A stretch of DNA of 35,510 nucleotides, from the NCBI GenBank assembly GCA_019456305.1, contig VRUD01000045.1, positions 1 through 35,510 on the forward strand, given 5' to 3'. Source of the stretch: Cytophagales bacterium (lineage in GTDB: Bacteria; Bacteroidota; Bacteroidia; Cytophagales; VRUD01). The notes under the pieces were generated by a model. It was not told the DNA's origin and searched no databases. It saw only the letters and a list, made by a program, of their open reading frames with translations. This document shows, piece by piece, positions 3,978 through 26,289 of this stretch; the stretch's first letter is position 1, and each line of letters opens with the position of its first letter. A program made the translations under genes and the position numbers.

Positions 3978-4646
3978 TTATAGTAACGTAAAACTATACC
4001 CCATCCCGATCACATGGTCTAATGCCGGATTATTTACATTTATCTCCCTTTGATATAAATAAAAAAGGGTTAAATCACTTTTTTTGTTTAACCTGAAATC
4101 CAGGCCCAAAAATAAACGATATTTTTGAAACTCATTCGGTTTATTGCGAATGCGGTAATACAATTCACCAGCAACGAATGGATCAACTAGCCTTGAAGCA
4201 TTATAGGATACAGCCAATTTATTTCTGAGAAATTTTCTGGGATTTCTTCCCTGCCCAGGGTAGAGGACCTGATAACGGAGCCTGTAATTAAGTCTGACGG
4301 GAAATTTTTTCTTCCGGTATCTGGCAAGCAGGTCACCAGCAATTCTTTGACGTATCCTAATATTTCCAGCGTTAGTTTGCCTGATAATGAATCTATAGTT
4401 TGCCCGAATACGAATGTATTTGCTAATACGATACCTTAGCGCCAAATTGGTGAATGTAGTTTTAAAACGTAAATTGTTTTGATTTAATTGATCTAAGCGC
4501 AGTTGTTGTTCACCACTAATACGGAACTCTTTTGAAAGGTTATAATTCAATTGAGCGCTGGGCCAAAATTCAAGATCCTGGGTTTGGGCAAGAATTTTGA
4601 AGGAATATAGGATCGCTAAAAAAAATACAAATGTAAGTTTGGTCAT
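3978..4646 (-). CDS. DUF2490 family outer-membrane beta-barrel protein
   Basis: A 222-residue protein with a Sec signal peptide (MTKLTFVFFLAILYSFKILAQ) and a barrel made of alternating strands rich in Arg and Tyr, such as LALRYRISKYIRIRANYRF. It ends in a C-terminal hydrophobic strand (GMGYSFTLL). The pattern fits DUF2490, a family of predicted outer-membrane proteins of unknown role. It lies 25 nt downstream of the DUF4956 gene and two genes after the VTC protein, an association often seen in Bacteroidota. It may form the outer-membrane partner of that system; this is inference. Confidence 0.75.
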   Translation of the reverse strand: MTKLTFVFFLAILYSFKILAQTQDLEFWPSAQLNYNLSKEFRISGEQQLRLDQLNQNNLRFKTTFTNLALRYRISKYIRIRANYRFIIRQTNAGNIRIRQRIAGDLLARYRKKKFPVRLNYRLRYQVLYPGQGRNPRKFLRNKLAVSYNASRLVDPFVAGELYYRIRNKPNEFQKYRLFLGLDFRLNKKSDLTLFYLYQREINVNNPALDHVIGMGYSFTLL

Positions 4647-16018: not shown

Positions 16019-17569
16019 ATGGCAAAAAAGAACGGAAACGGAACAGACGAACCATTAGAAAAACAGCTTTGGAAATCGGCTGACAAACTGAGAAAAAATA
16101 TTGATGCAGCGGAATACAAACACGTTGTCCTTGGGCTAATATTTCTTAAATACATCTCTGACGCTTTTGAAGAATTGTACGACAAATTAAAAGAAGGAGA
16201 AGGCGAATACGCAGAAGCCGACCCTGAAGATAAAGACGAGTACAAAGCCGAAAATGTTTTCTTTGTACCAACTGATGCTCGTTGGGATTATCTTTTATCC
16301 AAAGCCAAACAACCGACTATTGGAAAAACGGTTGATGATGCAATGGACGCTATCGAAAAAGAAAACACATCTTTGAAAGGAGTATTGCCAAAGGTATATG
16401 CACGACAAAATCTTGACCCAACCAGTTTGGGCGAACTTATTGACCTTGTTGGGAATATTGCCCTTGGTGATGCTAAATCAAGAAGTGCCGATGTGCTTGG
16501 TCACGTTTTTGAATATTTTTTGGGAGAATTTGCATTGGCTGAAGGAAAACAAGGAGGGCAATTTTATACCCCTAGAAGTATTGTAGAATTATTGGTTGAA
16601 ATGCTTGAACCATATAAAGGACGAGTATTTGACCCTTGCTGTGGTAGCGGTGGAATGTTCGTGCAATCGGAAAAATTTGTAGATAAACACAAAGGGAAAA
16701 TAAACGACATTCCCATTTACGGACAAGAGAGCAATCAAACAACGTGGCGACTGGCAAAAATGAACCTTGCCATTAGAAGATTAGACAGCTCACAAGTAAA
16801 GTGGAACAACGAAGGCTCGTTTTTGAATAATGCTCATAAAGATTTAAAATCTGCTTACATCATTGCCAACCCACCGTTTAATGTAAGCGATTGGAGTGGT
16901 GATTTACTGCGTAAAGATGGGCGTTGGCAATATGGAACGCCACCCACAGGAAATGCAAACTATGCGTGGATACAGCATTTTATATATCACCTTGCACCAA
17001 GTGGGCAAGCGGGTTTTGTTTTGGCAAAAGGTTCGTTGACTTCCAAAACTTCTGGAGAAGGTGAGATAAGAAAAAACCTGATTGAAGCGGGTTTGGTTGA
17101 TTGTATCGTAAACCTGCCTGCCAAACTGTTTTTAAATACTCAAATTCCTGCTTCCTTATGGTTTATGAGCCGTAACCGTACAAACGGAAAATACAGAGAC
17201 CGAAGCAAAGAGATACTTTTTATTGATGCCCGCCACTTAGGACATTTAATAAACAGACGAACACTCGTACTTTCAGATGAAGATATACAAAATGTTGCCA
17301 ACACCTACCACAACTGGAGAAATCCTGACGGTAATTATGAAGATATAAAAGGTTTTTGCAGTGCTGCAAGTATTGAAAGAGTTAAAGAACTCGATTATGT
17401 TTTAACGCCCGGTAGATATGTTGGCTTGGCTGATGAAGAAGACGATTTTGATTTTAACGAACGCTTTACAAGTTTAAAAGCAGAGTTTGAAGAACAGTTG
17501 AAAGAAGAAGCTATTTTGAATAAACGTATTTCTGAAAACCTTGCTAAAATTGAGTTAAAGGATGAATAA
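16019..17569 (+). CDS. hsdM: Type I restriction-modification N6-adenine methylase (HsdM)
   Basis: 516 residues, the usual size. An N-terminal helical HsdM domain (about 10-140, [26 protein letters not shown]) precedes the methylase fold. The AdoMet motif [11 protein letters not shown] lies at about 203-213, the catalytic NPPF at 283-286, and [18 protein letters not shown] is the typical lead-in. The C-terminal tail has a coiled-coil-prone segment ([23 protein letters not shown]). HsdM methylates adenine as an M2S1 complex, using HsdS for sequence choice. Here hsdS is only a 62-residue stump and hsdR is absent, so the enzyme is probably orphaned unless a specificity subunit is supplied elsewhere. 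It overlaps the next gene by 8 bp. Confidence 0.93.
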
Positions 17570-18455
17570 AAAAAACCAAATAGTGCCATTGGAAAATATT
17601 CAAAACCTAATATTCACTATTCGTGACATTCAGGTGATGATAGATAGAGACCTAGCTGATATGTACAGCGTAGAAACGAAAGTTTTAAATCAAGCTGTAA
17701 AAAGAAATTTAAATCGTTTTCCTGAATTATTTAGATTTCAATTAACCGAAAAAGAAAAAATAGAACTGGTCACAAATTGTGACCGGTTCAAAAAACTTAA
17801 ACATTCTTCTGTTAATCCATATGCTTTTACTGAACAAGGCGTATCGATGCTGTCAGCAGTTTTATATAGTGATACTGCTGTAAATATTTCCATTCAAATT
17901 ATTCAGGCATTTGTTGAAATGAAAAAATTTATCTCCACAAATGCAAGTATTTTTCAACGACTTGATAAAGTTGAACTAAAACAAATTAAAACCGACCAAA
18001 AATTTGAAGAAATCTTTAAAGCCCTTGAAGATAAAAGTATAAAACCCAAACAAGGTATTTTTTATGACGGACAAATATTTGACGCTTATGTTTTTGTTTC
18101 CGATTTAATTAAATCTGCCCAAAAATCTATTTTGCTTATTGATAATTATGTAGATGAAACTGTTTTGCAACTCTTTACCAAACGAAATAAAAATGTATCT
18201 GTAAGTATTTACACAAAAAATATTACTGAAACTTTAAAACAAGATTTAGCAAAACACAATAGCCAATACCCGAAAATTGAAATAAAAGAATTCGCAAAAT
18301 CTCACGACCGTTTTCTTATTATAGATGATAAGGAATTATACCATTTTGGAGCAAGCCTAAAAGATTTGGGCAAAAAATGGTTTGCTTTTTCTAAAATGGA
18401 TGCCGATGCCTTTAATCTGATTGCTAACTTGAAAAAGGTAAATATCGATGAGTAA
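17562..18455 (+). CDS. ORF6N-domain protein fused to a phospholipase D-like domain
   Basis: 297 residues. Residues about 8-115 are an ORF6N DNA-binding domain ([58 protein letters not shown]). A short coiled-coil linker ([22 protein letters not shown]) leads to a C-terminal PLD-like fold (about 165-290, [21 protein letters not shown]...) with HDRFLIIDD at about 247, a degenerate HKD motif in which Lys is replaced by Arg. ORF6N proteins are frequent between hsdM and hsdS in Bacteroidota type I loci. It overlaps hsdM by 8 bp and the hsdS stump by 8 bp, so translation is coupled. It may regulate or restrict; the missing Lys suggests binding rather than classic nuclease chemistry. Confidence 0.85.
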
Positions 18456-18636
18456 AGTAGTAGAGAGAAAATTGAGAGATATAGGCTGTGATTTTATTTC
18501 TGGGTATGGCTTTAAAAGTTCAGATTATACAGACAATGGCATCCCTTTAATTAAAATTGAAAAGAGTTTGCCCGCCAACGCTCAAAAGAAAATGAGTAAC
18601 GATTTGACACTTTCGTTTCAACAGAAAATTTCATAG
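18448..18636 (+). pseudogene. hsdS: HsdS specificity subunit, N-terminal stump
   Basis: 62 residues ([20 protein letters not shown] then GFKSSDYTDNGIPLIKI) matching the opening of the first target-recognition domain of type I specificity subunits. An intact HsdS has about 400 residues with two recognition domains and conserved helical spacers; none of that follows. After the TAG the same frame reads PIDTEKESNNYKIITE to a TAA at 18687, with no HsdS character. The gene is therefore 3'-truncated, with the break close to 18600. It overlaps the ORF6N-PLD gene by 8 bp, keeping the normal hsdM-accessory-hsdS order. Loss of hsdS and hsdR disables the type I system here. Confidence 0.75.
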
Positions 18637-18763
18637 CCCATTGACACAGAAAAAGAATCAAATAACTATAAAATCATAACCGAATAATGATTAGTTTTGC
18701 GGTCGATGATTAAAAATTCCTTTATAGGTAAATATAAAATTGTAAAAGGTTGAGATTTGTGAA

Positions 18764-18791
18764 GGGGTCTGTATTATTCAGACCTTTTTTT
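18764..18791 (+). terminator. Rho-independent terminator before res
   Basis: GGTCTG (about 18766-18771) pairs with CAGACC (18779-18784) over a TATTATT loop, followed by seven T. It ends the hsd transcript 11 nt before the res start codon. The close position could also make it a leader attenuator. The 18637-18800 gap shows no other gene. Confidence 0.7.
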
Positions 18792-18801
18792 CATAAATAA
18801 T

Positions 18802-21687
18802 ATGATTCAAAACATCATACATCATAAAAAAAATGAGTGGCTCGCTTCCAAAGATTGCACCATTCATTCATTGATAGAATACATAAGAGAAAAGGGAGAA
18901 CTGCGCAACACACAAATTGACGCAATTGAAACTTATCTTTTCCTTAAAACCGCTGGTGAAAACAAACCCCTTTGGCAATTATTTTCCGAAGGGTTTTTTA
19001 TCCATCAAACACCCGATCTATCAAAAGCCAATATCAACCAACAGGCAAGAAATATTTTGGAAAAGAATGTTTCTGCAATGGCATTGTATGATTATTCAAG
19101 ACAAAATATAAATGGCAAAACCTTATTACCAGAACTGGAAAAACTCATCATATCTCAACCGGATAAATTAGACTATGAAGCAATTATTAAATCCATTTTC
19201 TATAAGGTAAACTACCCAGATTACTTATTTAGCTTGCCAATGGGTGCAGGGAAAACATTCCTGATGGCTGCCTTTATTTATCTTGACCTCTATTTTGCTC
19301 AAAACGAAACTGAAAACAAATCTTTTGCCCATAATTTCCTTGTACTTGTTCCTTCCGGCTTGAAATCATCCATTATTCCCAGCTTAAAGACCATTGAAAA
19401 CTTTGACCCTACATGGCTTTTACCCGAACCGGCTGCAAGCAACATCAAAAAAATATTACGCTTTGAAGTGCTTGACCAGCCAAAAACCGGAAAAAAGAGC
19501 AATAAAGCCCGAAACCCTAATGCGAAAAAAGTAAATGATTACATCAAAGAGCAGGACTTAACCGGATTGATACTTGTAGTCAATGCCGAAAAAGTCATCC
19601 TCAACCGGCTTGAACTGACCGAACAATACAAGCTCATTGAAAGAACCGAAGATGAAGAAGATAGATTTGCAAATGAACTCCGAAACCTTGTAGGGAAAAT
19701 TCCAAATCTTGAAATCCTTATTGACGAAGTACATCACGCTGCAACAGATGATGTAAAGCTCCGGCAGGTCGTAAACAAATGGAACAACAAGGGTAACATA
19801 ACCACCGTTCTTGGTTTTTCAGGAACGCCATACCTGTCAAAAGCAGACAAAATACCCTTAACTGAAAATATTAACATCAAATTCTCTCAAATCACCAACA
19901 CAATTTATTACTACCCCCTTATTTCAGGAATTAAATCCTTTCTGAAAAAACCAACAGTAAGAATGGCTGAAAATCTTAATCCGCTTGAAATCATTGAGAA
20001 AGGGCTTACTGAATTTTATGAGCTTTACAAAAACAAGATTTATTACAATGACTGCATTCCCAAAATCGCTATTTACTGTGGAAAGATTGAACGGCTCGAA
20101 ACTGAAATTTACCCCTTCGTTGCTCAAATAGCCAAAAAATTCGGAGACAGCGAAATCAATATCCTGAAATACCATAAAGGAAACAAGGACTTCAAACTTC
20201 CCAAAGAAAACGAACTGGAATACAATTCCCTTGACCTACCCATTTCCAAAAAACGCATCATATTACTGGTACAGGTTGGCAAAGAAGGTTGGGACTGCCG
20301 AAGTTTAACAAGCATCATATTGGCTCAAAAAGGCGACAGCCCCAAAAACATGGTACTCCAAACCTCATGCAGATGCCTTCGACAAGTGGAAAAAGATAAA
20401 GATGAAACCGCCCTCGTTTGGCTAAATGAATACAATGCCAAAACCCTGAATGCACAATTAAAGGAAGAACAGCATACCAGCATTGAAGAAATCAATCGCC
20501 TTGCTAAAGACCCGAAAGGAGAAACCGCAGAACGCCATCCACGAATTGAATACCTAAACCTGCCGGCAGTAGAATTGTACCAGCTAAAAATTGATTACCA
20601 CACGCTGATTGTGGAAAAGAAAGCAAATACCGAACAGAAGCTAAACTTGCTTACAAAAAATATTGACGAGTACATGACTAGCGCAATTGTCCGTACTAAA
20701 AAGGACTTCAAAGAAGATAAAGGGACAGAAGTGTTAACCGAAACCGGTTACGAAATAGCCAATTACAACCTTTGGCTGGCTAACATAGCAAAACAAAGTT
20801 TCAACTACATTACAATAACTGAACTGAAATCTTTTGAAATGCATCTAAAAAAATTATTTCAGGAAATAACCTACACACCAAACGGACAAACTATTTTCAA
20901 TGAACGGTATGATTTAGATACCATCCATTCAAAAATTCGGCTGGCATTCAACCCAAAACGTTCTCTGGAAATTAAAGAAGAAACCGTAAAGGAAAATGCA
21001 GAACTGCTATTAATTGACCAACTCAAACCTGCAAAGAAAAACAACAAGCTATACCCCAATGAAGAAGAAACAATCCAAATTCTGAAATATGACAAAACAG
21101 GCAAACCATTGGATGAAGCTGAAAAGGTGCTTCAGAAAGAATACGAGAAAATGAAAAAGAAATTGGAAGAACAAGGAATTGCAAATATGCTTCCCCCTGC
21201 TCCTTCACTTTCCCTTGCCGTTAAATCAAAAGACCGCACATTTCATTACCTGCCTTACAATTTTTGGCAAAGTAGATTTGAGAGAGATATGCTGAAAGAA
21301 GTGCTGAATTTGAAAGATTTTAAAGAACGTAACCTTGAAATCTATTACAACGGAGAAAGAGGGCTAACCGGCTTTGTCATTAACTGCTTTGCGAAAAATG
21401 GCAAGAACTGGAAACCAATTGGTCATTACACGCCCGACTTTTTGATTGTGAAACGGAAAGACGATGAACTCCGAAAAATCCTAATCATTGAAACCAAAGG
21501 AAGCGGATTTGCCGACCAAAAAGCATTTCTGTTGCGAAAGCAATATGTTTCATCCGACTTTTTAAAATTGAATAACGATAAATTCGGTTACAAACGTTTT
21601 GACTTTCTCTATTTGCAGGACAGCGATGGAGTAACTCCAAACCTGACAAAGCTGAAAGAAAAAATTATGAACTTTTTTAACGATTAA
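18802..21687 (+). CDS. res: Type III-like restriction endonuclease/helicase subunit (Res)
   Basis: 961 residues with an SF2 helicase core. Walker A PMGAGKTFLM (about 146-155), Walker B IDEVHHA (about 306), motif III SGTPYLSK (about 339), motif V QVGKEGWDCRSL (about 490) and motif VI LQTSCRCLRQ. The C-terminal nuclease has the PD-(D/E)xK layout YTPDFLIVKRK (about 876) and ILIIETKGSGF (about 893). This is the Res architecture: ATP-driven translocation and cutting of unmodified DNA in complex with Mod. mod follows after only 4 nt. The order res-mod is the reverse of classic type III operons such as EcoP15I. Codons are richer in AAC, CTC and CCC than in the flanking AT-rich genes, consistent with transfer. 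Confidence 0.88.
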   Translation: MIQNIIHHKKNEWLASKDCTIHSLIEYIREKGELRNTQIDAIETYLFLKTAGENKPLWQLFSEGFFIHQTPDLSKANINQQARNILEKNVSAMALYDYSRQNINGKTLLPELEKLIISQPDKLDYEAIIKSIFYKVNYPDYLFSLPMGAGKTFLMAAFIYLDLYFAQNETENKSFAHNFLVLVPSGLKSSIIPSLKTIENFDPTWLLPEPAASNIKKILRFEVLDQPKTGKKSNKARNPNAKKVNDYIKEQDLTGLILVVNAEKVILNRLELTEQYKLIERTEDEEDRFANELRNLVGKIPNLEILIDEVHHAATDDVKLRQVVNKWNNKGNITTVLGFSGTPYLSKADKIPLTENINIKFSQITNTIYYYPLISGIKSFLKKPTVRMAENLNPLEIIEKGLTEFYELYKNKIYYNDCIPKIAIYCGKIERLETEIYPFVAQIAKKFGDSEINILKYHKGNKDFKLPKENELEYNSLDLPISKKRIILLVQVGKEGWDCRSLTSIILAQKGDSPKNMVLQTSCRCLRQVEKDKDETALVWLNEYNAKTLNAQLKEEQHTSIEEINRLAKDPKGETAERHPRIEYLNLPAVELYQLKIDYHTLIVEKKANTEQKLNLLTKNIDEYMTSAIVRTKKDFKEDKGTEVLTETGYEIANYNLWLANIAKQSFNYITITELKSFEMHLKKLFQEITYTPNGQTIFNERYDLDTIHSKIRLAFNPKRSLEIKEETVKENAELLLIDQLKPAKKNNKLYPNEEETIQILKYDKTGKPLDEAEKVLQKEYEKMKKKLEEQGIANMLPPAPSLSLAVKSKDRTFHYLPYNFWQSRFERDMLKEVLNLKDFKERNLEIYYNGERGLTGFVINCFAKNGKNWKPIGHYTPDFLIVKRKDDELRKILIIETKGSGFADQKAFLLRKQYVSSDFLKLNNDKFGYKRFDFLYLQDSDGVTPNLTKLKEKIMNFFND

Positions 21688-21691
21688 AACT

Positions 21692-23647
21692 ATGCCTGTA
21701 AAATACATACCCTATTACCCCGACACCGTTGAAGGTCAAGCCATCCTCAACAACTTTGTGAGAACGCGCAGAGCATTGAAATACCGCGATAACGGAAAAG
21801 TGTACGAAAAAATTAAACGGGGTATGCCTTATTACGAAGTGGAAAAAGCCGAAAGCATTGGCAACAACCCCAACAACATGCTCATAAGAGGCGAATGTGT
21901 CTCCGCCTGTGCCTACCTCAAAGACAGGGGCATCAAGATTGACCTCGTTTACATTGACCCGCCCTTTGCTTCCGGTGCCGATTATGCCAAAAAGGTTTAC
22001 ATCCGTAGAAATCCTAAAGTAGCCGAAGCAATAAAAAAAGCAGAAGAAAAAATGGACATTGATGAACTACAGGCATTTGAAGAAAAAATGTATGGTGACA
22101 TCTGGAATAAAGAGGCATATCTCAACTGGATGTACGAAAACTTATTGGCTATAAAAAATGTGATGAGTGTAACTGCAAGTATTTATGTGCATCTGGACTG
22201 GCATATCGGGCATTATGTTAAAATATTGATGGATGAAGTGTTTGGGGAGGATAATTTCATCAATGAAATTGTTTGGGTTTATCACGGTCCTGGTTCTCCA
22301 AATCAACAAGTTTTTACCCGAAAACATGATACAATTTTCTGGTATTCAATAAATGAAGAATATATATTCAATTCAGACGAAATAAGAATACCCTACCATA
22401 GTACCACGGCAAATAAATTTGAAAGTAAAGGAACAGGATTTGCTGGTGGTGCAGGTTTTAAAGATGGTGGAAAAATACCCGAAGATTGGTGGAATTTCCC
22501 TGTAGTTTCTCGTATTAGGACAGAAATTACTGGATATAATACCCAAAAACCCGAAAAATTATTAGACCGCATCATCAAAGCCAGCAGCAACGAATTTCGG
22601 GATGAACGCACAAAAGAACGAATGATAGTAGCTGACTTTTTTGGAGGAAGCGGAGTAGCGGCAAAAGTGGCGAATGACCAAAAAAGGAACTTCATCCACG
22701 TTGACGTAGGCATCAACAGCATCCAAACCACAAGAGACCGCCTCATTGAAGCCAAAGCAGAGTTTGACATACTGGAAATCAAGGACGGAGTAAACCTGTT
22801 CCGCAATCCCACCCAAACCATGGACAAGCTGGCAAAACTAATACCCGGCTTGCAGAAAAATAATAACAAAAATAGCAATGGTATCTCAAAATTCTGGTTC
22901 GGTTACATATCCGACAGCAAACTCGGCACCGTTCCGGTTTACGTTCCCGATTTAACCGACCACACCCAAAAAGTGCTGGACATTCCTATTGCCAATCAAC
23001 TCGTTAATCTTGAACTCCCTGAATTGGTGAATGTAAAAAAGGCAGTGGTCTATTACATTGACATTGATAAACCGAAAGAAATTGAAAAATTTATCCAAAC
23101 AAACAACATGACGGAAGTCAAAGTAGAATTGCGAGACCTAAAACAATTACTGGATGAAACCGTTGTGGATGATGTTGCTGAATACAAGCTAACAGAAAAA
23201 GACGGAACATACACTATTGAGTATACGAAATTCATCAGCGACCGCCTTCGCCAGAAAATTGACGAATACAACCAAAAAGGAATGTTGCAACCATTGACAC
23301 GAGGTGATGAAAATGAAGAAGAAGAAAAGCCAGCCAAGAAAAAGAAGAAATTCACCCCCATTGAAATCAGCAAGGAAGGACTGGAACTCATTGAACTAAT
23401 CAGTTTGGACTGTAAAAACAAAGACGGTAATGTTTGGCACAGCGACCACGAAATTAAAATTGACAAGCTCGGCTACGTAATTGAGGACGGCAAAAAGACC
23501 AAAAACTTCTGGGATGCTAAAATCACCTGCAACAAAAAACCCTTGCGAATAAAAGTGCGGAACATTGCAGGGGATGAAATAATAATTTCTCTGACCGAAG
23601 AAAAGCAAGAAAGAAAATTGGAAACTGAAAACAAAGGGGCAGTTTAG
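21692..23647 (+). CDS. mod: Type III-like DNA methyltransferase (Mod)
   Basis: 651 residues, beta-class order. Motif IV IDPPFASGADY lies at about 87, FXGXG-type motif I ADFFGGSGVAAKVA at about 313, and TQKPEKLLDRIIKASS is the conserved segment before motif I. The central part (about 150-290: VWVYHGPGSPNQQVF, FPVVSRIRTEI) is probably the recognition region. An acidic-then-lysine linker (EEEEKPAKKKKKF) leads to a C-terminal domain of about 100 residues (GNVWHSDHEIKIDKLG) likely contacting Res. It should methylate adenine on one strand and set specificity for both functions. Start MPVKYIPYYPDT, directly behind res. It appears intact. Confidence 0.88.
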   Translation: MPVKYIPYYPDTVEGQAILNNFVRTRRALKYRDNGKVYEKIKRGMPYYEVEKAESIGNNPNNMLIRGECVSACAYLKDRGIKIDLVYIDPPFASGADYAKKVYIRRNPKVAEAIKKAEEKMDIDELQAFEEKMYGDIWNKEAYLNWMYENLLAIKNVMSVTASIYVHLDWHIGHYVKILMDEVFGEDNFINEIVWVYHGPGSPNQQVFTRKHDTIFWYSINEEYIFNSDEIRIPYHSTTANKFESKGTGFAGGAGFKDGGKIPEDWWNFPVVSRIRTEITGYNTQKPEKLLDRIIKASSNEFRDERTKERMIVADFFGGSGVAAKVANDQKRNFIHVDVGINSIQTTRDRLIEAKAEFDILEIKDGVNLFRNPTQTMDKLAKLIPGLQKNNNKNSNGISKFWFGYISDSKLGTVPVYVPDLTDHTQKVLDIPIANQLVNLELPELVNVKKAVVYYIDIDKPKEIEKFIQTNNMTEVKVELRDLKQLLDETVVDDVAEYKLTEKDGTYTIEYTKFISDRLRQKIDEYNQKGMLQPLTRGDENEEEEKPAKKKKKFTPIEISKEGLELIELISLDCKNKDGNVWHSDHEIKIDKLGYVIEDGKKTKNFWDAKITCNKKPLRIKVRNIAGDEIIISLTEEKQERKLETENKGAV

Positions 23648-23704
23648 ATTTGTTTTATTGAGCAGGGGAAACAGGAAAAGATAGATTTTAAAAAAGAAAA
23701 ACAA

Positions 23705-24049
23705 ATGTTCATTAAGAGTTTATATATAGAAAACTTTAGATGTTTTAAAGAAGTCGAACTCGATTTTGAAACATTAACTATTCTGGTTGGTGAAAATGGT
23801 ACGGGAAAAACATCGGTTTTGGAAGCTATAAATTATGCCCTTACACCCGGATTTTTATCAAACAGGATTAGCGAGGAGGATTTTTGCAATACAAGTGATG
23901 GTGAAATAAAGATTGAGGTAGTATTCAACGAAAGTTTTAAAACAAAGCTGCCTGATGGATTTAGCACAAAGGAAATACCTTGTGATAGGGTATTATTGCA
24001 AGTTAAGAGAAGGGAAAAAGCTGCACCGAATAAAGCGTTATCTATCTAA
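23705..24049 (+). pseudogene. OLD-family/RecF-like ATPase, N-terminal fragment
   Basis: 114 residues: MFIKSLYIENFRCFKEVELD, then Walker A VGENGTGKTSVLEAIN (about 29-43), LNFxxx-like strands and VLLQVKRREKAAPNKALS. This is the first Walker half of the OLD-family/AAA_21 ATP-dependent nucleases. Full proteins have about 550-700 residues with a signature motif, Walker B and a Toprim nuclease; all are missing. The frame ends with SI* and the next gene starts 13 nt later, so the 3' part was deleted. It lies 57 nt after mod, as expected of a former anti-phage accessory. It is unlikely to be active as an ATPase. Confidence 0.7.
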
Positions 24050-24449: not shown

Positions 24450-24457
24450 TATATTTG
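24450..24457 (+). promoter_or_regulatory. -7 box TATATTTG for the membrane-protein cassette
   Basis: Exact TAnnTTTG match 33 nt before the ATG at 24490, between the terminator and the cassette core GTTAGCGATAA (24470-24480). The -33 element is not clear. Confidence 0.45.
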
Positions 24458-24469
24458 CACAAGGCATTT

Positions 24470-24480
24470 GTTAGCGATAA
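24470..24480 (+). repeat. Cassette core GTTAGCGATAA (left side)
   Basis: This 11-mer precedes the membrane-protein gene; its inverted partner CTACCGCTAAC (25108-25118) follows that gene. The palindrome expected to its left is missing, replaced by the terminator, so this may be the cut end of an element. Confidence 0.45.
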
Positions 24481-24489
24481 TTAAAAAAA

Positions 24490-25107
24490 ATGGAAGGTTT
24501 AAAGAAATATATATTCTGTATAGTAATCGGAATTTCAGTTGTTGTTTTTGTTGTATGGCTTTCTTTTTATTTCTGCAAGTTTCACGGAGAACTGTCACCA
24601 AAACAATCAGACTGGGGTGACTTTTCTAACTATGTGTCTGCTGTTACTGGATTGATTAGCTTATTTATTTTGTCCTTTCTCACTTACCTAATTCATAAAG
24701 AATCAGCGGCATTAAAAATAAAATTGGAAAGACCTGTTCTAACGTTCTCCTTTGATGGAAAAACCGGACATTACTATTGCACCAACATTGGAAAGGGTTC
24801 GGCTATGAACGTAATAATTATACATAAACTGAAAGAAGGACAAAATCACTATGATTTGGCTGTTCAGTGTTTTTCTATACCAATGAATAAAAAAGTAGAT
24901 ATTACATGGATAAAGGGAACATTTGAATTCATTACCCTATACGATGACATATCAAAATTGCAGCATATGGGAAAATTCGTACACGGTAGATTGGAAGAGT
25001 TGAGGTTTGATGCAACATTTGACAAAGAATGGAAGGTTGATAAAGTGTTAGGACAGAAAGTTTCAGAAACTATTCCTCTGTATGATGCGATTAATAGAAC
25101 AGCATAA
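24490..25107 (+). CDS. Two-helix membrane protein, possible abortive-infection type
   Basis: 205 residues. Two transmembrane helices (about 7-29 and 47-70) flank a short loop with SDWGDFSNYVSAVTGLISLF, then a soluble C-terminal domain (about 80-205) with beta strands (RPVLTFSFDGK, HYYCTNIGKGSAMNVIII). The (W)GDFxxYVxxxxGLISLFxLSFL pattern resembles the N-terminal membrane region of putative phage abortive-infection proteins, but the resemblance is short and I do not claim the function. The gene is a self-contained cassette: own -7 box, core 24470-24480 in front, and its stop codon TAA reads into palindrome C. Confidence 0.6.
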   Translation: MEGLKKYIFCIVIGISVVVFVVWLSFYFCKFHGELSPKQSDWGDFSNYVSAVTGLISLFILSFLTYLIHKESAALKIKLERPVLTFSFDGKTGHYYCTNIGKGSAMNVIIIHKLKEGQNHYDLAVQCFSIPMNKKVDITWIKGTFEFITLYDDISKLQHMGKFVHGRLEELRFDATFDKEWKVDKVLGQKVSETIPLYDAINRTA

Positions 25108-25215
25108 CTACCGCTAACAGGCTTGCAAAGAAAAGCCACCGCAGCAGCCGCATACATTTGCAATTTTCGCTTATCCTACCCCACAAGCCCTAAAATTGCA
25201 AAAGAATGCGGCTGC
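25105..25215 (+). repeat. attC-like palindrome C (24-bp arms, 24-nt loop)
   Basis: Starts TAACTACCGCTAAC, whose first TAA is the stop codon of the preceding gene. A small hairpin GGCTT/AAGCC (25120-25137) is followed by main arms 25144-25167 and 25192-25215 (22 of 24 match, GCAGCCGCAT start). Loop motif CCACAAGCCCTAAAA, as in F. The following 25216-25317 segment holds no gene, only an AGACC/GGTCT pair. Confidence 0.6.
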
Positions 25216-25317
25216 CCTACCAAAAAAAGAAAAAAGACCCCCTAAAAAAACAAAACATTTTTGGTCTGTAGCATTAAAATACCGTCATTACGTTGGACAG
25301 AAATTTGCCCTACTGTT

Positions 25318-25450
25318 TATAACATGCGCTAAATTCAATGCGGGTGAAGTGGTAGTTTGAAAGGTCTGTGCTTTCTTCTATCTTTGTTGTCGTGGGACAA
25401 GTACGATACTTTTAACCCGCACTGAATTTAGCGCTGTCCGTTATCGGTAA
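25318..25450 (+). repeat. attC-like palindrome D (20-bp arms, 69-nt loop)
   Basis: Left end TATAACAT, arms 25326-25345 and 25415-25434 (19 of 20 match, GCGCTAAATTCA), right end GTCCGTTATCGGTAA. The loop has TTTGAAAGGTCTGTGC (25356-25371) and CGTGGGACAAGTACGATA (25391-25408), both found with few changes and at nearly the same spacing in E. Confidence 0.65.
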
Positions 25451-25493
25451 GCGTAAAAGTGACATCCAAATTTCAATTGTCACGACTTTTTTG

Positions 25494-25501
25494 TAACTTT
25501 G
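25494..25501 (+). promoter_or_regulatory. -7 box TAACTTTG before the PIN gene
   Basis: Exact TAnnTTTG match 16 nt before the PIN start codon, implying a very short leader. Same octamer as before hsdM. A TTG at 25477 is 14 nt upstream, shorter than ideal. Confidence 0.45.
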
Positions 25502-25516
25502 GAACGACAAATAATT

Positions 25517-25969
25517 ATGAAACAACGAATTTACATTGACACTTCAGTAATTGGCGGTTGTTTTGACATTGAATTTAAAGAGTGGTCGAACAAATTATTT
25601 GACGACTTTCGGGACGGAAAAAAAAATGCTGTAATTTCCGACATCACACTTGACGAACTTTCTTTTTCAAGACCAGAAGTTCGCAATCATCTTGACACTA
25701 TCCCGAACGATTACAAAGAATATGTTTTGAATGACGAACAAACTGAAGAACTTGCGGACAAATACATCAAAGAAAAAGTGGTGACACAAAAATCTCACGA
25801 AGACGCTTTGCATATTGCTATTGCGACAGTGAATAAGGTTGATGTTTTGGTAAGTTGGAACTTTAAACATATTGTGAACCTTGACCGTATCAGAAAATAC
25901 AACGCTGTAAATTTGATGAACGGTTATCCGATGCTTGAAATTCGTAACCCAAGAGAAATCTTAAAATAG
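25517..25969 (+). CDS. PIN-domain ribonuclease (VapC-like toxin)
   Basis: 150 residues from ATG 25517; a TTG 18 nt upstream is in frame but falls in the -7 box. PIN fold: YIDTSVIGGCFD (first catalytic Asp about 6), ISDITLDEL (Glu about 45), a helical middle, and HEDALHIAIATVNKVDVLVSWNFKHI with the Asp of EDALH and W(N)F block conserved in PIN nucleases. Such toxins cut tRNA or other RNA and are held by an antitoxin. The small 50-residue gene 7 nt downstream is the candidate partner, in reversed toxin-first order. The pair is framed by palindromes D and E with inverted cores GTTATCGGT, so it forms one cassette. Confidence 0.82.
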   Translation: MKQRIYIDTSVIGGCFDIEFKEWSNKLFDDFRDGKKNAVISDITLDELSFSRPEVRNHLDTIPNDYKEYVLNDEQTEELADKYIKEKVVTQKSHEDALHIAIATVNKVDVLVSWNFKHIVNLDRIRKYNAVNLMNGYPMLEIRNPREILK

Positions 25970-25976
25970 ACAGACA

Positions 25977-26129
25977 ATGGAAAAAAAATTTGATGCAGTG
26001 AAGGAAATGCGTTCCATTAGGGAAAAACTGCAAAAAGAATATGAGAAAAACCCTGCGTTGAGACACAAACGCTTGGTACAAATCCGTAAGAAATATCGGC
26101 TGACAAAGCGAACGAAAGAGAACGCCTAA
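25977..26129 (+). CDS. Small basic partner of the PIN toxin (candidate antitoxin)
   Basis: 50 residues: MEKKFDAVKEMRSIREKLQK, then YEKNPALRHKRLVQIRKKY and RLTKRTKENA. Highly charged, strongly basic and helical, starting 7 nt after the PIN stop, so cotranslated. Short helical proteins next to PIN genes commonly act as antitoxins, some with DNA-binding ends; this is inferred from position and size, not from a recognised motif. Its stop TAA is the first part of palindrome E (TAACCGATAAC), so gene and repeat are joined without any spacer. Confidence 0.6.
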   Translation: MEKKFDAVKEMRSIREKLQKEYEKNPALRHKRLVQIRKKYRLTKRTKENA

Positions 26130-26255
26130 CCGATAACACGGGGCTTGGCGTAAGCGGGGTTGACGAGCAATTTGAAAGTGTGTGCCTCGCATTTAGTTCG
26201 GTAGCGTGGAACAAGTTAGTAGCCCGTAATCCCCGCCTACGCAAGCCCCGAAACC
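26127..26255 (+). repeat. attC-like palindrome E (20-bp arms, 71-nt loop) at the right island edge
   Basis: Left end TAACCGATAAC, arms 26140-26159 and 26231-26250 (CGGGGCTTG, one bulge), right end AAACCGTCAG. Loop motifs TTTGAAAGTGTGTGC (26171-26185) and CGTGGAACAAGTTAGTA (26205-26221) match those in D. Immediately afterwards the sequence returns to minus-strand AT-rich genes that carry GC palindromes. Confidence 0.65.
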
Positions 26256-26289
26256 GTCAGACTGTCTAAAAACTATCATAAAAACTAAA

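Follow-up and report, generated by a model that had tools for sequence, protein, structure and literature searches.

The window, by which we mean the whole 35,510-nucleotide contig of a Cytophagales bacterium that was analysed, very probably holds a stranded array of gene cassettes of the integron type, part of a system in which an insertion-less recombinase of the IntI lineage would perform exchange at G^TT. In the mechanism that we propose, a tyrosine recombinase of approximately 275-390 amino acids, which belongs to the IntI lineage, lacks the IntI-specific insertion and often has an N-terminal HARP-like domain, would excise and insert cassettes; the partners in the exchange, which would take place at G^TT, would be an attI-like site that adjoins the recombinase gene and attC-like sites, mostly of about 124 nt, whose folded form would be an imperfect hairpin of 16 bp. 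A cassette would consist of G^TT(core), a gene, a complementary core ending in AAC, the hairpin body and a G. The comparisons on which this reading is built are those of sequences, and they point to a defined site architecture, to covariation within it, to GTT junctions, to a shifted pairing of cores, to arrays that read away from the integrase, and to a linkage between sites and integrase.

All features of the array lie on the plus strand. The first junction is the 5' core of cassette 1, G^TTAGCGATAA (GTTAGCGATAA, 24470-24480), which is followed by a gene for a predicted membrane protein of 205 amino acids (24490-25107) without a family match (SLATT_4 reached E 0.08) and by the 3' core (R''), CTACCGCTAAC (25108-25118). 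These two cores agree at 9 of 11 positions, or at 12 of 14 when the stop codon TAA (25105-25107), which adjoins the 3' core and extends its pairing, is counted; the cassette thus defined runs from G^TTAGCGATAA to TAACTACCGCTAAC (25105-25118). Its own 3' palindrome is not intact: the core is followed directly by a dispersed repeat of about 200 bp with a strong internal hairpin (25119-25320), which fills the place of the remaining cassette 1 site and has copies on three contigs of the same genome (C1, C80 and C75), and a complete attC-like site (AACA ... TGTCCGTT) occupies 25321-25442. The repeat measures about 190-200 bp, its hairpin is formed by GCAGCCGCAT...ATGCGGCTGC, and in several loci its end coincides exactly with the left core of an attC-like site.

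The second cassette opens with G^TTATCGGTAA (GTTATCGGTAA, 25440-25450) and holds two genes, the first encoding a PIN-like protein of 150 amino acids (25517-25969), whose match to PIN_3 (PF13470, E 3e-4) scores 22 bits and lies under the curated cut-off of 27, and the second encoding a 50-residue partner, possibly an antitoxin (25977-26129). The 3' core (R''), TAACCGATAAC (26127-26137), contains the stop codon of the partner gene (26127-26129) and agrees with the 5' core at 10 of 11 positions; the attC-like site (AACACGGGGCTTG ... CAAGCCCCGAAACCG) extends from 26135 to 26256. This site ends in ...CCG^TCAGACTG, and the position expected for the next TT is taken from 26257 by the left end (26257-26282) of a recurrent element of about 130 bp with terminal inverted repeats, further copies of which lie on C102, C8, C38, C57 and C3. 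The element, whose ends are GTCAGACTGTCTAAAAACT and AGTTTTTAGACGGACTGCC, recurs in other loci as well (L041, near 4065-4190; L043, L044, L045 and L039), flanked by the last G of an attC-like site and the TT of the following cassette, and it may be either a MITE that targets attC-like sites or a cassette without a gene. A third attC-like site is found at the opposite end of the contig (575-717; 41.9 bits, E 4e-8, with the model described below). Directly upstream of the cassettes are genes of restriction-modification type, including an N6_N4 methylase (16019-24049), after which a truncated AAA_15 gene (23705-24049) precedes the array.

The original prediction had placed four core strings at these positions, and all four were recovered there; its statements that cores agree within a cassette and that the stop codons form part of the sites likewise hold. 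It had also assigned large palindromes to the flanks of both genes, which folding and the covariance model bear out around the PIN pair; the 3' palindrome of the membrane-protein cassette is damaged. Of the -7 boxes that it had given to each gene, that of the PIN pair (TAACTTTG) lies inside the cassette, while that of the membrane-protein gene (TATATTTG) is upstream of the GTT boundary and outside the cassette.

To describe the sites, we used a covariance model (R1) derived from 33 integrase-adjacent sites of relatives, from which all sites of this genome were left out. R1 matches 25312-25451 with 68.9 bits (E 1e-14) and 26126-26267 with 38.6 bits (E 2.7e-7), and it detects no site at the 3' end of cassette 1, none in 40 kb of E. 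coli and none around 20 IntI genes; a search of Rfam for a family matching the sites was negative. Typical sites are mostly about 124 nt long, with an imperfect hairpin of 16 bp, and in the R1 alignment 15 of the 16 stem pairs show compensatory changes, with a covariation score of 0.692 as compared with 0.04-0.13 for controls in which the partners were slid. Relative to shuffled sequences, the palindrome preceding the PIN pair folds better by 5.9 s.d. and the palindrome after it by 3.1 s.d., and a simple site scan found one site in the cassette region against about 0.17 per strand in shuffled windows. Among 35 further sites, the positions after AAC are near-invariant (A1 in 35, T7 in 34 and A15 in 34), although these sites were picked by R1 itself, so that this invariance is not fully independent of the model.

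A15 mostly stands opposite C on the top strand and would form a T-G wobble on the bottom strand. When the stem was folded in isolation, the bottom strand was the more stable in 26 of the 33 sites (p 4e-4). The folding energy of the whole site did not separate the strands of these 33 sites and was dropped as a discriminator. A folded single strand would be the substrate, as suggested by the retention of structure without conservation of sequence, by analogy with attC sites and by this modest strand bias. Site dimensions differ among subfamilies: at L110 and L116, integrases of 512-517 amino acids precede hairpin sites that are shorter, about 60 nt, and that also show the shifted core pairing, and at L179 and L189 the sites measure about 200 nt. 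R1 covers these two classes in part only.

Within this genome, R1 matches the window sites and about 20 more in the selected stretches that were read. Near-copies of the site at 25321-25442 occur on four other contigs and continue, after GTT, with a different sequence in each case; copies of the cassette 2 site lie behind different genes on C102 (two copies), C25 and C8. On C102, too, the cassette cores are complementary, GTTGTGTGCAATAC to GCACTGCACACAAC and GTTGTGCTTCATGC to GCACGAAAGCACAAC.

The PIN gene pair allowed a comparison across species of the order, since it occurs, in the same gene order, in homologous cassettes of two others. In one (G018) it lies between GTTGTAGGCAAG and CCTGCCTACAAC and in the other (G057) between GTTGGGTGCAAT and CACTGCACCCAAC, in each case followed by a hairpin that R1 detects; near the PIN homologue of a further genome (G035) no site was found. 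In all three species, our own included, the pair is thus a cassette with different hairpins and cores, and every junction falls at GTT. Gene, hairpin and core therefore vary independently, whereas the original prediction would have been undone by genes and palindromes that always stay together or by junctions away from the GTT cores. A search with the window DNA recovered no empty version of the cassette locus among relatives, the closest of those compared belonging to the same order.

Cassettes exchanged at G^TT would take the bases after GTT at one site as part of the following cassette, and these bases should then pair with the left core of the next site. In the named loci, the 5' core pairs with the 3' core of its own cassette at five or more of six positions in 47 of 51 consecutive site pairs, whereas the alternative, pairing of the bases after GTT with the left core of the same site, is seen in 5 of 51 (Wilcoxon p 2.5e-9); in other genomes the corresponding numbers are 18 of 24 for the shifted pairing and 4 for the own core. 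This shift is probably the signature of exchange at G^TT. It also bears on the view that the palindromes are simply repetitive elements (REP-like sequences, terminators or MITEs) between horizontally acquired genes that never recombined as cassettes. The palindromes are indeed dispersed and repeated in the genome, and a MITE-like element sits at the end of the array; however, the hairpins vary in sequence while structure and length are kept, the core at a junction predicts that of the next site and not its own, and the PIN pair carries different hairpins in three species, so that we regard this view as barely credible.

Cassette recombination at G^TT would call for an enzyme. The window contains no integrase, as had been stated, and the search for a co-occurring tyrosine recombinase, which had been suggested as a check, located one in relatives, where tandem arrays of hairpin sites adjoin its gene. 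In 80 named loci, kept from at least 522 relatives, 111 of 112 sites are oriented away from the integrase gene, and the array lies downstream on the same strand in 20 and upstream on the opposite strand in 26, with none having both. In 29 of 30 cassettes the longest open reading frame shares its strand with the array, and the median spacing of sites is about 680 bp. A plasmid of Chryseobacterium sp. SNU WT5 (NZ_CP041688; L223) encodes the integrase, downstream of which six attC-like sites follow on the same strand, and the interior of this array includes IS110, other transposases and a group II intron.

Relatives of the integrase remnant described below are encoded by 125 of 291 genomes of the order, and a profile finds the family in 108 of 395 genomes of a sample of the phylum; named hosts include Runella, Spirosoma, Flavobacterium, Chryseobacterium, Maribacter, Pedobacter, Odoribacter and Chitinophagaceae. 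Aligned with V. cholerae IntI (2a3v), the family integrase forms two blocks, between which 65 IntI residues at the IntI-specific domain stand opposite 22, and the distance between catalytic motifs is 63-68 amino acids, as compared with 69 in Xer and about 107 in IntI. With TIGR02249 the family scores 158-196 bits in two separate stretches (cut-off 265); its best-scoring NCBIfam model is NF040815, a XerA-type 'site-specific tyrosine recombinase/integron integrase' (197-210 bits, cut-off 220). In a tree that calls for caution on account of its long branches, a fully supported branch sets Xer apart from the family and IntI together, IntI is one clade (100/100), and the family forms one side of a weakly supported branch (63/79). 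By this tree the family is the nearest relative of IntI, as either its sister or its stem group, and the family enzyme would be the one that catalyses the exchange.

An AlphaFold model of the family integrase (mean pLDDT 88.7) resembles structures of archaeal Xer (VIA Z 23.8) and IntI (20.5). Many members have one to three N-terminal repeats with weak similarity to HARP: the N-terminal domain reaches 24.7 bits with PF07443 (cut-off 25), and HARP of SMARCAL1 (4o66) ranks first in Foldseek at E 0.14 and is absent among the VIA matches listed for this domain. We had considered that the HARP-like domain might replace I2 as the reader of structure, an idea that is weakened both by the weakness of this structural match and by integrases of 273 and 306 amino acids that lack the domain, as several members do, and also adjoin arrays; the domain is therefore not essential. 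Acinetobacter plasmids (e.g., NZ_CP104735 and NZ_CP041297) encode tyrosine recombinases about 48% identical to the catalytic part of the family, and one gene of this type is annotated as TnpF on FJ012881.

We determined that the sites go with the family integrase and not with IntI alone. In the order, R1 sites are present in 109 of 125 integrase-positive genomes and in 74 of 166 others (OR 8.5, p 2e-14); at the strict cut-off used, 74 genomes thus have sites without integrase and 16 have integrase without sites, mismatches for which the shorter sites of some subfamilies are at least partly responsible. Sites occur in 183 of 395 genomes of the phylum sample, and in 93 of the 108 with the family integrase (OR 13.6, p 2e-23). 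Divided by enzyme, the frequencies are 68 of 80 for the family integrase only, 25 of 28 for both enzymes, 14 of 79 for IntI only, and 76 of 208 for neither, the last figure including stranded arrays and reflecting the strict integrase cut-off. We had expected the sites to be confined to the class Bacteroidia; this was disproved. Their link is to the integrase and not to the class.

These figures weigh against the proposal that the cassettes are ordinary ones served in trans by a classical IntI, with site differences due only to drift within the lineage. In favour of it, the cassette logic and the plan of the hairpin match those of integrons, and bona fide IntI was identified in 105 of the 395 phylum genomes. 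Only one of these genomes, however, belongs to the class of our bacterium, R1 is blank around 20 IntI genes, and of the 20 sites listed for genomes that hold IntI, 12 have the family integrase within 10 kb and none has IntI within that distance. Given also the low frequency of sites in IntI-only as opposed to family-only genomes, we consider service by IntI very unlikely, and retain the family integrase as the probable enzyme.

Of tyrosine recombinases our own genome retains several fragments of the 3' end. Two of them, on C6 and C102, resemble each other and both terminate in SPLD; the fragments on C9, C42 and C24 have diverged further. No intact family integrase was detected by profile in this fragmented MAG, and in the named genomes the remnant sequence by itself gave no match, in contrast to an alignment of full-length relatives. 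Downstream of the remnants, C6 and C102 share their sequence until ...TTTACAA|GTT, and C42 and C24 until ...AAGTAA|GTT, each pair diverging beyond. In these two contig pairs, which make up the whole comparison, the GTT junctions resemble attI sites that are followed by different first cassettes. Since only remnants are found beside attI-like junctions in this genome, the window array looks stranded, and an active integrase has presumably been lost.

The intact Xer genes (C15 and C41), set against the broken family integrase, would fit a scenario in which chromosomal XerC/XerD moves the cassettes of this genome today and the family integrase is a passenger. Elsewhere, however, arrays are found beside the family integrase and directed away from it, and Xer is near-universal whereas the sites follow the family integrase; this scenario is therefore highly improbable, and we favour past recombination by an integrase that would since have been lost.

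The I2 helix has been described as the innovation that enabled single-strand recombination by IntI, with the lack of intermediates named as a limit (eLife 2020, PMC7790495). We hold at even odds a broader proposal: that a sister or stem lineage of the integron integrases, spread through the phylum and devoid of the insertion, recombines attC-like hairpins in folded form without I2, that such exchange either predates I2 or arose twice, and that integrons of Bacteroidia were overlooked because the tools rely on IntI and canonical attC. If so, the origin of integrons would become open to direct test through a natural family without I2, next to IntI and associated with hairpin arrays. There would also be a large and apparently uncatalogued cassette pool, reaching into Flavobacterium and Chryseobacterium and including a plasmid-borne example, as judged from the number of order genomes with the integrase and of phylum-sample genomes with sites. 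The open-access literature that we searched yielded no description of an insertion-less integrase tied to cassette arrays.

How, then, does the system compare with those already known? The cassettes are of the integron type by core pairing, hairpin sites and GTT junctions, as originally predicted; the accompanying phrase "without integron hallmarks" was mistaken or incomplete, as hallmarks are present in the shifted core pairing, the compensated stem (15 of 16 pairs), the cognate integrase and, probably, the attI-like junctions, here beside integrase remnants. The suggestion of a separate Bacteroidota system is correct insofar as the recombinase is not IntI by the domain test, but IntI has no nearer relative than this enzyme, and the system is therefore integron-type rather than something unrelated.

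With integrons (IntI/attI/attC, including those with inverted integrase) it shares (i) one gene or operon per cassette, all on the same strand, with imperfect hairpin sites; (ii) exchange at G^TT, here read as a footprint, with core pairing that is complete only in the circular cassette; and (iii) an integrase beside the array, as well as CALIN-like arrays without one. It differs in that the recombinase has no IntI-specific insertion (the I2 helix region), in that the array may lie on either side of the integrase, in a site length mostly near 124 nt with near-invariant T7 and A15 after AAC, and in cores of GTTR plus cassette-specific bases (GTTAGCG and GTTATCG in the window); of the canonical RYYYAAC/GTTRRRY, whose absence had been pointed out, GTTRRRY fits only 2 of 35 sites. 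Bacteroidetes were previously credited only with In0 elements (integrases without attC sites) and with one complete integron, that of Salinibacter ruber (IntegronFinder 2.0, PMC9024848), which is likewise a complete integron in this phylum and, by contrast, was found with IntI-based models. An integron-like subgroup of simple tyrosine recombinases, in which the insertion is not fully conserved, has been delineated (Smyshlyaev et al. 2021, PMC8138268); in the parts of that article that we consulted, insertion-less members are not tied to cassette arrays or attC-like sites. Finally, XerC, XerD and XerA have in common with the family the spacing of catalytic motifs and the lack of an insertion, but they form a tree group of their own (100/100), and it is with the family that arrays, hairpin sites and the N-terminal extension go.
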